A stretch of DNA of 33,846 nucleotides from Candidatus Saccharimonadota bacterium (GTDB taxonomy: Bacteria > Patescibacteriota > Saccharimonadia > Saccharimonadales > Saccharimonadaceae), in assembly GCA_024697865.1 (NCBI GenBank), contig JAILSC010000020.1, positions 1 through 33,846 of the forward strand, read 5' to 3'. Positions within the stretch are counted from its first letter, which is position 1; every line of letters begins with the position of its first letter. This document shows, piece by piece, positions 3,897 through 24,426 of this stretch. Below the pieces are notes generated by a model, which did no database searches, was not told where the DNA came from, and was given only the letters and a program-made list of their open reading frames with translations. Made by a program: the position numbers and the translations under genes.

Positions 3897-6092
3897 ATGT
3901 TCAAGCGCATCGTCAAAAGGGACGGCAAAATCACCAAATTTAATCCTGACAAAATCACCGAAGCTATTGCTAAGGCCGGCCTCGCTACTGGCGAGTTTAA
4001 AGCTGATCGCGCTAAAACTTTGACCGACAAAGTTATCAAACGCGCTGACGAGAAAATCACCGCTCGTACTCCTAATGTAGAGCAGATTCAAGACCTCGTC
4101 GAGGAAATTTTAATGGAATCCAGCTTCAAGAAAACTGCCCGCGCTTACATTCGTTACCGTCAGGAACGTTCTCGAGTACGTGATGCCAAATCCGACTTGA
4201 TGATGATTTATCGTACTATTAGCCACGCTGATGCCTCCGAAGATTCTGACGTTAAACGTTCTAATGCTAACGTCGACGGCGACTCCGCTATGGGTAAAAT
4301 GCTTCAATTCGGCGCCGAAGGTTCCAAAGTTTTCGCTAAGACTTTACTCCTCCGTCCTGATATTGCTGCCGCTCACGATAATGGTGACATTCACATTCAC
4401 GACCTAGATTTTTACGCTACTGGTACTCTGACTTGCTGCCAGTCCGATCCGTTCACTCTCTTCGAAAACGGCGGTTTTAACACCGGACATGGTCACCTTC
4501 GTACCCCTAATTCCATTGGCTCCTATGCCGCACTTGCGGCCATTCTCCTTCAGGCCAATCAGAACGAGCAGCACGGTGGTCAGTCTATTCCTAACTTTGA
4601 CTATGCTATGGCTCCTGGCGTGGATAAATCTTTCCGAAAAGCCTTAAAGCGTAATCTTGAAAAATACAACAAATTCGCTAACAAGAAATTGGATCTTAAA
4701 GTTAAAGATGATATTTGCTTTGGTGACGACGCTAAATTAAAACGCGCTAAATGGCCCAAAGAAGTCATCGAGGCCAGCAATGAAGATGCTGAGCGTGAAA
4801 CCCTCCAAGCTATGGAAGGCTTCATTCATAACCTCAACACCATGCATTCACGTGCCGGGGCTCAAGTTCCATTTACTAGTATTAACTTCGGTACCGACAC
4901 CACTCCATCTGGCCGCCTAGTTTCTAAATATCTTTTGGAGGCTACAGACAACGGTCTGGGCAAGGGCGAAACGCCTATTTTCCCAATCAGTATTTTCAAG
5001 GTCAAAGAAGGCGTTAACTATAATCCAGAAGATCCCAACTACGACCTCTTCAAGCGTTCAATGGAAGTCTCCAGCAAGCGTCTCTTCCCGAACTTCTGTT
5101 TCATCGATGCTCCTTACAACCTTAAGTACTACAAGCAGGGCGATTACCGTACCGAAATCGCCACCATGGGTTGCCGTACTCGCGTCTTTGCTTCAATCTT
5201 CCCAGAGTCAGACGGTATTGTTACCGGTCGTGGCAATCTATCATTCACCACCATTAACCTCGTTCGTATTGGTATTCATCACGGCATCTGCACCGGGGAA
5301 AGAAAGGAAGCAGACTGGAACGGCTTTTATAAAGAACTAGATGAAAAAATGGATCTGGTCAAAGATGAACTCCTCGAGCGCTTTGAATTCCAGGCCAACC
5401 AACACGTCCGTAACTTCCCGTTCTTGATGGGTCAAGGCAACTGGTTTGGCTCTGAAAAACTCGGTCCCAATGATACTTTGCGTAGCGTAATTAAGCACGG
5501 CACTCTTTCTATCGGCTTCATCGGCCTAGCGGAAACTCTGGTTGCCATGACTGGTAAACACCACGGTGAAGACGAAGACTCTCGTGAACTAGGCTTAGAT
5601 ATTATCACTCATATGCGTGAACGCTGTGATGGATATTCCAAGAAATACAAGCTTAACTTTAGCCTGCTAGCTACTCCCGCTGAAGGTATCGCCGGTCGCT
5701 TTACTAAGATCGATAGGAGAGAATATGGTATTATCCCGGGCGTCACCGACCGTGAATTCTATACTAACTCCTTCCACGTACCGGTTTACTACCCAATCTC
5801 TGCTTTTGAAAAAATCGAAATTGAGGGACCATATCACAATCTCTGTAATGCCGGCCACATTACCTATATCGAGCTAGATGGCGATCCTTCTCAAAACATC
5901 GCCGCCTTTGAATCTGTTATTCGCAAAATGCACGACGAAGGCATCGGTTATGGTTCGGTTAACCACCCAGTAGACCGTGATCCTGTCTGTGGCTTCTCTG
6001 GGGTAATCACCGGCAATCGTTGTCCGCACTGCGGCCGCCTAGAGGGCGATCTTCCGTTCGAAAAAGTTTATGCTGAAGCGAAAGGGAAGTAA
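3897..6092 (+). CDS. nrdD: Anaerobic (class III) ribonucleoside-triphosphate reductase
   Basis: 731 residues, full length. NrdD reduces ribonucleoside triphosphates to deoxyribonucleotides without oxygen, using a glycyl radical made by NrdG. An N-terminal ATP-cone (about residues 1-95, FKRIVKRDGKITKFNPDKI) is the allosteric dATP/ATP site. The catalytic barrel carries the conserved Cys pair in TGTLTCCQ (C180/C181) and the Cys of MGCRTRV (C426). The C-terminus, RDPVCGFSG (Gly699 in a glycyl-radical-like context) followed by CPHCGR (C709, C712), combines the radical loop with a zinc-type CxxC. Only three Cys are visible there, so the metal site may differ from the four-Cys form; I cannot say whether that is usual for this subfamily. 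It has an AAGGAGG ribosome site and its stop overlaps nrdG (TAATG). The NrdR boxes suggest nucleotide control. Confidence 0.95.
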   Translation: MFKRIVKRDGKITKFNPDKITEAIAKAGLATGEFKADRAKTLTDKVIKRADEKITARTPNVEQIQDLVEEILMESSFKKTARAYIRYRQERSRVRDAKSDLMMIYRTISHADASEDSDVKRSNANVDGDSAMGKMLQFGAEGSKVFAKTLLLRPDIAAAHDNGDIHIHDLDFYATGTLTCCQSDPFTLFENGGFNTGHGHLRTPNSIGSYAALAAILLQANQNEQHGGQSIPNFDYAMAPGVDKSFRKALKRNLEKYNKFANKKLDLKVKDDICFGDDAKLKRAKWPKEVIEASNEDAERETLQAMEGFIHNLNTMHSRAGAQVPFTSINFGTDTTPSGRLVSKYLLEATDNGLGKGETPIFPISIFKVKEGVNYNPEDPNYDLFKRSMEVSSKRLFPNFCFIDAPYNLKYYKQGDYRTEIATMGCRTRVFASIFPESDGIVTGRGNLSFTTINLVRIGIHHGICTGERKEADWNGFYKELDEKMDLVKDELLERFEFQANQHVRNFPFLMGQGNWFGSEKLGPNDTLRSVIKHGTLSIGFIGLAETLVAMTGKHHGEDEDSRELGLDIITHMRERCDGYSKKYKLNFSLLATPAEGIAGRFTKIDRREYGIIPGVTDREFYTNSFHVPVYYPISAFEKIEIEGPYHNLCNAGHITYIELDGDPSQNIAAFESVIRKMHDEGIGYGSVNHPVDRDPVCGFSGVITGNRCPHCGRLEGDLPFEKVYAEAKGK

Positions 6093-22654: not shown

Positions 22655-22870
22655 GCCATTTTCCTACCATTGTCCATATTTTTTTACAACCCCCCACCCA
22701 CACAAAATAACTAAATTTTCGTGCCAAAATTAGCAAACTCTGCAACACCAAAAAAATGTCCGCGGCGCGCACGAATCTTGGTTCGACTTTTTATTAAAAT
22801 GGTTGCCGAAAGGACACTAAATTGCTTGTGGAAAACTCAGCAAAAAAATACAAAAAATTGTTCAAAAAAG
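22655..22870. other. Intergenic stretch between comM and the small RNA promoter
   Basis: A/T-rich and without a convincing reading frame. It must carry the comM promoter on the minus strand, but I see no clear -35/-10 pair. A C-rich run (CCCCCCACCC near 22692) and one TGTGGAAAA string near 22835 that resembles a DnaA box are the only marked features. Confidence 0.4.
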
Positions 22871-22872
22871 TA

Positions 22873-22901
22873 TTGACATTAGCATTTTTAGACGATATAA
22901 T
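22873..22901 (+). promoter_or_regulatory. Strong promoter of a small RNA
   Basis: -35 TTGACA (22873-22878), exactly 17 bp, -10 TATAAT (22896-22901): a consensus promoter, and among the strongest in the window. No protein gene follows. Confidence 0.85.
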
Positions 22902-22907
22902 AGGGGT

Positions 22908-23017
22908 AGCTTTTGAATAAAAAAATTATGCAAAAGCCAAAAATAAAAATTTAGCCAAAATAACTCCACACTCTACACAGAAGACCGGTTTTCCTCGCAG
23001 TTACCGGTCTTCTTTTA
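22908..23017 (+). ncRNA. Small RNA of unknown function, about 110 nt
   Basis: Runs from the consensus promoter to a textbook terminator. The body is A-rich with little internal pairing (long A runs at 22917-22966). The 3' part is the terminator hairpin, whose 13-nt loop contains TTTTCCTCG. That loop is complementary to the GAGGAA(A) in several ribosome sites of this window (before 233, 6693, 17256 and gyrA at 29671). I do not recognise a known family. A short frame of eight codons at 22928 has no ribosome site. Confidence 0.65.
22979..23017 (+). terminator. Terminator of the small RNA
   Basis: AGAAGACCGGT (22979-22989) pairs perfectly over 11 bp with ACCGGTCTTCT (23003-23013), followed by TTTATAT. 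Confidence 0.85.
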
Positions 23018-23040
23018 TATTTGGCACTAAAAATAGTCAC

Positions 23041-23062
23041 AAAAAAACTGCCAAAATGGCAG
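23041..23062 (-). terminator. ssrA terminator
   Basis: On the minus strand CTGCC-atttt-GGCAG followed by T7, 16 nt after the CCA end of tmRNA. Confidence 0.85.
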
Positions 23063-23077
23063 GATTTTTAAAAAGAA

Positions 23078-23428
23078 TGGTGGAGCTGCCGGATACTGCC
23101 TCCGGGTCCGAAACATCACTGGGTCATGATTCTACGTGCGTAGTTTTCTGTTTTGTCTTGGCATAAAATAGTAGCGGCAGAAAACGAAACTTGCTAGTGC
23201 CATGGCTAATTTTCGAATTATCACTCGCCATTTTGATAACCTTATTTCCGTAATATGATAATTTTGATCCTACGGAACCTTAGACCAAAACCAGCCTAAT
23301 ATTTAGGCATAAGCCGGCATGTAAGCTACATGCGCGGTTTGCGTGTTTTTAGCACTTATTGAATACTTACGGTATCTAATCGGCACGCCTCACGACTGTT
23401 AATATCCCGTCTAAGCTTTGTCAGCCCC
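23078..23428 (-). ncRNA. ssrA: tmRNA (trans-translation RNA)
   Basis: 351 nt. The tRNA-like ends are clear: 5' GGGGCTGAC with AGACGGGA, 3' TTTCGGACCCGG and CAGCTCCACCA. The resume codon is most likely the GCT at 23353, giving the tag AKNTQTAHVAYMPAYA and a TAA at 23305; the context AGTGCTAAAAAC is like that of Firmicute tmRNAs with AKN tags. tmRNA frees stalled ribosomes and marks the product for proteolysis. Two features are odd: the T-loop reads GGCAGTA where nearly all tRNA-like domains have TTCRANY, and the D-region has TTAGAC for the usual TTCGAC. The tag ends in AYA, not the common ALAA or AVAA. Confidence 0.93.
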
Positions 23429-24072: not shown

Positions 24073-24426
24073 ATGAAGCATAACCGCATTATTCTCGTCT
24101 TGGGCATTATAGGACTCGCAGCTTTAACCTTAATGCTGATTATCACCTCTCCGACCGAAATCGGTCCTTTAGGTGTTTTGTTATTTTTTACAACACTATA
24201 TTTAGTGTTTTTTTGTGCCGTCACGTTATTGCTCCAAGCTTTTGTCCGGTTGGCTTTTAAACGTAAAGAACTTAAAAACAAAGATTATCTTTACGCTGCT
24301 ATTCTAGCTTTTGGTCCGATTATGCTCTTAATGGCCCGTTCTTTCGGGGCTATCGACCTCTGGACTGTCGCTCTTACGGTTATTTTCTTGTGTTTGGCTG
24401 AATTTTTGGTTTACAAAAGAATCTAG
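24073..24426 (+). CDS. Small membrane protein of unknown function
   Basis: 117 residues with four hydrophobic segments (about 5-25, 32-58, 74-91, 96-113) and a basic loop FKRKELKNK between the second and third. The pattern of two hairpins with the basic loop inside suggests both ends are cytoplasmic. I do not recognise the family. Translation starts at the expected 5' end of the mRNA (leaderless). It is followed by a gene with its own promoter, then the T4SS-like ATPase, so it may be part of the same system, though that is only proximity. Confidence 0.75.
   Translation: MKHNRIILVLGIIGLAALTLMLIITSPTEIGPLGVLLFFTTLYLVFFCAVTLLLQAFVRLAFKRKELKNKDYLYAAILAFGPIMLLMARSFGAIDLWTVALTVIFLCLAEFLVYKRI

Follow-up and report, generated by a model that had tools for sequence, protein, structure and literature searches.

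A conserved small RNA gene beside tmRNA in Saccharibacteria and a candidate partner RNA with a complementary hairpin loop

Introduction

Complementary hairpin loops that kiss are found in cis-encoded antisense RNAs such as RNAI and RNAII of ColE1 and similar pairs. The C-rich-loop small RNAs (sRNAs) of Firmicutes, of the RsaE or LhrC type, expose a loop or linker rich in pyrimidines beside the terminator hairpin. Pairs of separately encoded sRNAs, in which one RNA alters the interactions of the other, are described for Staphylococcus aureus (RsaI-RsaG and SprY-RNAIII), as are loop-loop contacts between RNAIII and its targets (PMC9266662, PMC8383071). For the sponge RNAs SroC, 3'ETS-leuZ and the phage-borne AgvB, the role given is pairing with an sRNA (PMC8383071). 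CcnA of Caulobacter is a non-coding RNA that lies within the replication origin and is presumably activated by CtrA (PMC8959179).

Here, we describe a predicted small RNA, sRNA1, encoded in a 33,846-nt stretch of Saccharibacteria DNA (hereafter the window; contig 15 in a genome of 0.71 Mb), together with a candidate partner, sRNA2, encoded elsewhere in the same genome. sRNA1 resembles the RsaE/LhrC type in showing an exposed pyrimidine-rich loop at its terminator hairpin. The first-pass annotation had pointed to the C-rich exposed loops of Firmicutes; unlike the sRNAs that carry them, sRNA1 has a core, CUCGCAG, without a CCC run, its C-rich complement to the Shine-Dalgarno sequence is not conserved, and the host is not a Firmicute. 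As in the S. aureus pairs, the two RNAs are separately encoded and, by prediction, bind each other; the RsaI contact, as its sources present it, joins G-rich to CU-rich tracts, whereas sRNA1 and sRNA2 would form a reciprocal hairpin-loop pair, and the S. aureus RNAs belong to another phylum and share no Rfam family with them. The complementary loops recall ColE1 RNAI-RNAII, but the genes of sRNA1 and sRNA2 lie on different contigs and are not cis-encoded antisense partners. Some likeness to sponge RNAs is seen in the position of sRNA2 beside tRNA genes in the window's own genome (G000) and in mimic hairpins on a prophage contig; unlike SroC, 3'ETS-leuZ and AgvB as they are portrayed in the source, sRNA2 possesses a promoter and a hairpin of its own, both conserved, and its sponge activity is putative. 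CcnA offers a parallel as a non-coding RNA linked to the origin of replication, but it sits in the origin itself and the cited account gives it no partner sRNA, unlike sRNA1 with its candidate sRNA2. Among the papers listed for searches on small or non-coding RNAs, transcriptomes and tmRNA of Saccharibacteria or Patescibacteria, no title or abstract describes such an RNA.

Results

Structure and conservation of sRNA1

The sole 12/12 promoter match in the region, TTGACA-17-TATAAT, precedes sRNA1 on the plus strand, with the -35 element at 22873-22878 and the -10 element at 22896-22901 across a 17-nt spacer; at the laxer threshold of 9/12 there were 4 matches vs 4.6 in shuffles, that is, no excess. 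The predicted transcript of about 110 nt (22908-23018, plus strand) has start and end points deduced from the DNA; conservation stops near 23018, and the match of model R2 on the window covers 22907-23019. The unit consists of a 5' hairpin (22909-22937), a single strand that is invariant in the genus (AACTCCACACTCTAC, 22962-22976) and a terminator hairpin with an 11-bp perfect stem (22979-23013), the 13-nt loop of which (TTTCCTCGCAGTT, 22990-23002) contains the core CTCGCAG (22994-23000), the complement of the sRNA2 loop. The fold with its two hairpins has a z of -5.8, and equal stability was reached in 0/200 shuffles. In most copies the terminator stem is followed by a T-rich tail, as in an intrinsic terminator; in two (L029 and L031) the stem is longer and the T tract nearly absent. 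The promoter, the ~110-nt unit and the 11-bp hairpin had all been proposed by the first-pass annotation and agree with our promoter scan and fold; the terminator loop that it reported exists as well, off by one base in its version.

A DNA match spanning ~22860-23018, and stopping at the terminator, was found in 32 of 35 genus relatives (E<1e-25), the remaining three being incomplete genomes (G008, G014 and G015). By hand-counted rows, model R2 detected sRNA1 in 86 of 88 genus genomes, in 107 of 117 other genomes of the family and in 6 of 187 from other families of the order. A phylum-wide model search over 286 genomes found it in 16, of which 15 belong to the family; one match was borderline. 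The exact pattern of the two invariant segments occurred in at least 117 stretches of the named genome collection and had 0 matches in the viral collection; among the 80 titles of the matches listed, 78 were Candidatus Saccharibacteria, 1 was an uncultured bacterium and 1 Nomurabacteria. The title of this last record (L079) may be a misnomer.

Across 33 aligned copies, the window's included, the 10-nt loop segment TCCTCGCAGT is unchanged in 33/33 while the stem varies, which supports a functional exposed loop. The single strand AACTCCAC-ACTCTAC is likewise invariant, barring one inserted A in one copy (L025). In the 5' hairpin, 97.5% of cells are paired and 4 pairs are altered on both sides; for the named structure as a whole the values are 91.2% and ten pairs, counts that lean toward the given structure because it was supplied by hand after RNAalifold, which on the MAFFT alignment had dropped the terminator stem because stem lengths differ. 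The covariation score was reached by 0/500 shuffles, with the reservation that the structure was taken from the window's own sequence, giving it an advantage over the slid controls. Across 110 distinct terminators the stem sequences are widely divergent and the loop is retained, the exact-pattern loci having been required by the search to have that loop. Copies in other genera share a core of the 5' hairpin, an A-rich linker and a CTCGCAG loop on a new stem; the U run preceding CTCGCAG varies, and ACTCCAC, at the place of the invariant single strand, is retained in most of the family and no wider. In one genus (g42; L204 and L205) the promoter and 5' hairpin are kept, and the body is longer, with an extra hairpin and the terminator loop CTCTCTCGCG.

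Conservation and covariation strongly support a small RNA gene, as the first-pass annotation had claimed, and the decisive evidence is the DNA match among genus relatives together with the family-wide model matches. sRNA1 has features of an independently transcribed, trans-encoded sRNA, namely its own perfect, conserved sigma-70-type promoter, an intrinsic terminator and a conserved exposed pairing region. The annotation had proposed conservation of the promoter and of the loop among relatives as the check on its claim and a loop that differs between relatives as its refutation; the invariant loop leaves the claim unrefuted. We are therefore nearly certain that 22908-23018 is a real, conserved gene for a predicted sRNA. 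Identity with a known Rfam family was ruled out, since Rfam 15 held no family above the gathering cut-off for sRNA1 or sRNA2, the best scores being far below it.

A DnaA-box-like 9-mer, TTTTCCACA, lies on the minus strand upstream of the sRNA1 promoter (22827-22835; the plus strand reads TGTGGAAAA). We infer that it is a DnaA box because four copies of it cluster between dnaA and yidC in the same genome. Such a box precedes sRNA1 in 32 of 33 genus copies and sRNA2 in 19 of 23; elsewhere in the window's own genome the background rate is 1.3% per 125 nt. A box at the promoter, as in DnaA-regulated genes, is thus found for both RNAs, and DnaA may regulate both promoters.

sRNA2, a candidate partner

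When used as a query, the sRNA1 promoter also matched a second place in its own genome (contig C8, ~5137-5257, minus strand, outside the window), so that sRNA2 was discovered by promoter likeness and not by its loop. It is a short unit with a predicted RNA of ~85 nt and a promoter of the sRNA1 type, adjoins two tRNA genes in this genome and carries the hairpin loop TACGATTGCGAGG. A DNA search identified relatives across the genus, of which 23 aligned copies share a common hairpin (97.1% of cells paired). The loop reads CTGCGAG in the aligned genus copies and TTGCGAG in the window's own genome, where a G-U pair is left. Model R3 located sRNA2 in 82 of 88 genus genomes and in 15 other genomes of the family (both at E<=0.05), at least two of the matches of R3 (G363 and G116) falling on the sRNA1 locus. 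Copies from beyond the genus keep TGCGAG as the loop core, on differing stems and flanks. Most of the family has sRNA1 with sRNA2 undetected, so that the partner is documented for part of the family.

The exact 10-nt complement ACTGCGAGGA did not emerge as a target shared between genomes; in each genome one site was the antisense of sRNA1 itself, and the others were scattered. This search missed sRNA2 because the sRNA2 loop ends in GAGGC or GAGGT. A genome of another genus (G128) contains a unit resembling sRNA2, with a promoter of the same type and a 19-bp hairpin whose loop is CTGCGAGG; the unit lies near a gene read by eye as ROK-like, as sRNA2 does in G000. Most genus copies of sRNA2 also have a conserved single strand, ATGTATGACCT, between hairpin and terminator. 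Two genus genomes (G207 and G251), both 99% complete, contain sRNA2 and have no convincing sRNA1 match.

Complementarity of the two loops

Within one genome, the loops of sRNA1 and sRNA2 are complementary over 6-10 bases in the 34 parsed pairs (14 of the 48 pairs were unparsed and fall outside the count), with 10 complementary bases in 13 pairs, 9 in 5, 8 in 9, 7 in 1 and 6 in 6, that is, at least 7 in 28 of the 34. The mean loop duplex energy is -14.0 kcal/mol vs -4.5 for shuffled loops. TGCGAG is present in the sRNA2 of 47/47 compared genomes, a figure to be read with the facts that the T was demanded by site choice and that many loci come from model R3, which itself contains TGCGAG. At the flanking positions, the match within genomes is better than in shuffled pairings (p 0.005, 0.02 and 0.005; combined 0/5000) for 41 genomes, in a test that takes no account of phylogeny and leaves out 6 of the 47 genomes, where only one side was parsed (four of these show TGCGAG). 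The strongest sign of pairing comes from two other genera, in which both RNAs have changed together: G324 combines TCTCGCAA with TTGCGAGA and G391 combines TCTCGCAT with GTGCGAGA, both loops being altered in each case relative to the CCTCGCAG and CTGCGAGG of the genus. Conserved reciprocal complementarity, as in sRNA-sRNA (sponge) pairs, is therefore found here; in genus g32 most flanks mismatch and often only 6 complementary bases are left. Taken together, pairing between the loops of sRNA1 and sRNA2 is likely.

Discussion

Proximity to tmRNA and the nature of the unit

The constant neighbour of sRNA1 is the tmRNA gene (23078-23428, minus strand; detected by Rfam and missed by ARAGORN), which is convergent with it in the window and has a terminator-like hairpin at 23048-23062 (minus strand). 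Its tag reading frame yields AKNTQTAHVAYMPAYA. A tmRNA lies at most ~450 bp from sRNA1 in 150/150 loci, which overlap and comprise 113 distinct sRNA1 regions among L001-L033 and L037-L153, 3 of them unparsed; 3 of 153 loci held no sRNA1 and were excluded from this count. The arrangement is convergent in 83, same-strand with tmRNA downstream in 46, same-strand with tmRNA upstream in 21 and divergent in 0, so the linkage persists through rearrangement, and Rfam detects tmRNA in 16 of 20 loci from other genera and families. Such proximity is what one would see if sRNA1 were a functional satellite of tmRNA, acting through pairing, shared processing or guarding. The sRNA1 loop, however, pairs with tmRNA no better than with its shuffled versions (-10.0 kcal/mol against -10.7, 33 loci), and GTGGAG is missing in 33/33 tmRNA matches; tmRNA was rejected as a pairing partner, its complementarity not exceeding chance, and we consider a satellite role very improbable. 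The convergence of the two genes, and the fact that intergenic terminators are common, might also suggest that sRNA1 is a mere terminator hairpin, or the untranslated leader of a neighbouring gene, with no separate RNA. Against this, the unit is equipped with a conserved promoter, 5' hairpin and spacer of its own, it stays in place while the orientation of tmRNA changes among relatives, and the next same-strand open reading frame (>=60 aa) begins only at 24073, past the tmRNA gene. A leader or attenuator of a downstream gene was ruled out for want of a fitting gene, and we give the whole explanation almost no credence.

Ribosome sites, proteins or a partner RNA

The first-pass annotation had read the loop as an anti-Shine-Dalgarno element, complementary to GAGGAA in the ribosome sites of several genes, gyrA included. 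This is literally true, but concerns only 3 of the 28 coding sequences judged likely in the window (6693, 17256 and 29671, the last being gyrA), a small share for a classic sRNA whose UUUUCCUC would bind such sites in many mRNAs. Two further observations favour that reading. One is a second CUCC element, ACTCCAC, which most of the family retains. The other is a leader upstream of a gene read by eye as dnaX, where a weaker hairpin spans the start of a 172-aa protein; of the 28 genus copies that could be read (2 of 30 loci were unreadable at the start), 27 have GCGAGG at the ribosome site and 24 have TGCGAGG. Outside the genus, however, UUUUCCUC with its CCTC is not kept and the loops ACTCGCAG and TCTCGCAG are found, while CTCGCAG is retained, Shine-Dalgarno pairing leaves the conserved GCAG half unexplained, and the perfect complement that has been conserved is the sRNA2 hairpin loop, CTGCGAG(G). 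The loop comparison and the low share of GAGGAA led us to set anti-Shine-Dalgarno targeting aside as the conserved role, and the classic form now appears improbable; the pre-dnaX leader partly supports a reduced version, which it may keep alive. Alternatively, a protein such as an RNase or an RNA chaperone of the Khp type could recognise the loops, with RNA-RNA complementarity being secondary. A KhpB-type gene does lie beside yidC, and in genus g28 sRNA1 bears another hairpin whose loop is similar (TTCTCCGCAGT in G116, L198). Recognition by a protein would nevertheless require neither an exact complement in the loop of a partner nor the matched changes of G324 and G391, and we hold it to be distinctly improbable.

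We therefore favour, as the probable reading, that sRNA1 is a trans-acting sRNA engaged in loop-loop pairing with sRNA2 and a few other hairpins, which would mostly replace the earlier anti-Shine-Dalgarno mechanism. A strong promoter preceded by a DnaA box would drive sRNA1, and the 13-nt loop of the sRNA1 terminator hairpin would present CCUCGCAGU to hairpin loops bearing CUGCGAGG, above all to that of the independently promoted and conserved sRNA2. Probable further partners would be a few mRNA leader or terminator hairpins that differ between genomes, and sRNA2 would most likely titrate sRNA1 as a sponge or be regulated by it. The sequence comparisons show the conserved gene, its structure, the invariant loop, the conserved reciprocal loop of sRNA2 and the DnaA boxes; transcription, physical pairing, the direction of control and regulation by DnaA are inferred from them. 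If true, Saccharibacteria, which are tiny bacteria, would have a core RNA regulator and an unusual instance of two sRNAs whose complementary loops have been retained together, and their replication initiator would be concretely linked to control by RNA. Thanks to the loop pair, two short synthetic RNAs would be enough for a direct test of the claim.

Other hairpins with complementary loops

The window's own genome has 38 TGCGAGG sites vs 50 in a reversed control, fewer than in the control. Of the sites, 4 of the 32 examined lie in strong hairpin loops (score >=20), vs 0.3% of random positions (6 of the 38 fell outside this examination, one being the antisense of sRNA1). Besides sRNA2, these four comprise a terminator that follows the major head gene of a prophage (phrog_422), a hairpin right before a ribosome site on the same contig as that gene, and a terminator flanked by a secreted-protein-like gene and, in convergent orientation, a gene read by eye as EF-Ts. 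For three genomes of other genera, 67 of 77 CTGCGAGG sites were examined (10 were left out): three are sRNA1 antisense, one is the 19-bp hairpin of G128 and one, in G344, lies in the leader of a large surface-type protein, with a hairpin score >=15 that 2.3% of positions reach by chance. In G163, no CTGCGAGG site apart from the sRNA1 antisense lies in a strong hairpin. Hairpins with complementary loops are candidate targets.

A broader and rather doubtful extension would be a replication-linked circuit, in which two sRNAs with DnaA boxes and complementary loops might set the level of free CUCGCAG. This would read CUGCGAG hairpins in cellular leaders and terminators (those of an unknown gene before dnaX and of surface or secreted protein genes), and prophage mimic hairpins might exploit or resist it.

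A prophage-like region of the own genome contains two hairpin loops perfectly complementary to the sRNA1 loop (L357, G000:C2:56978, and L358, G000:C2:71033). The prophage hairpin was sought behind related head genes and found in 0 of 2 viral contigs. Finally, from ~1490 onwards, three loci (L316, L329 and L330) have a unit of ~400 nt whose neighbour in divergent orientation was read by eye as dprA; in L330 this unit has no Rfam match even at E<=1. Its first hairpin has the loop CTGCGAGG, and the unit is possibly an undescribed larger non-coding RNA.
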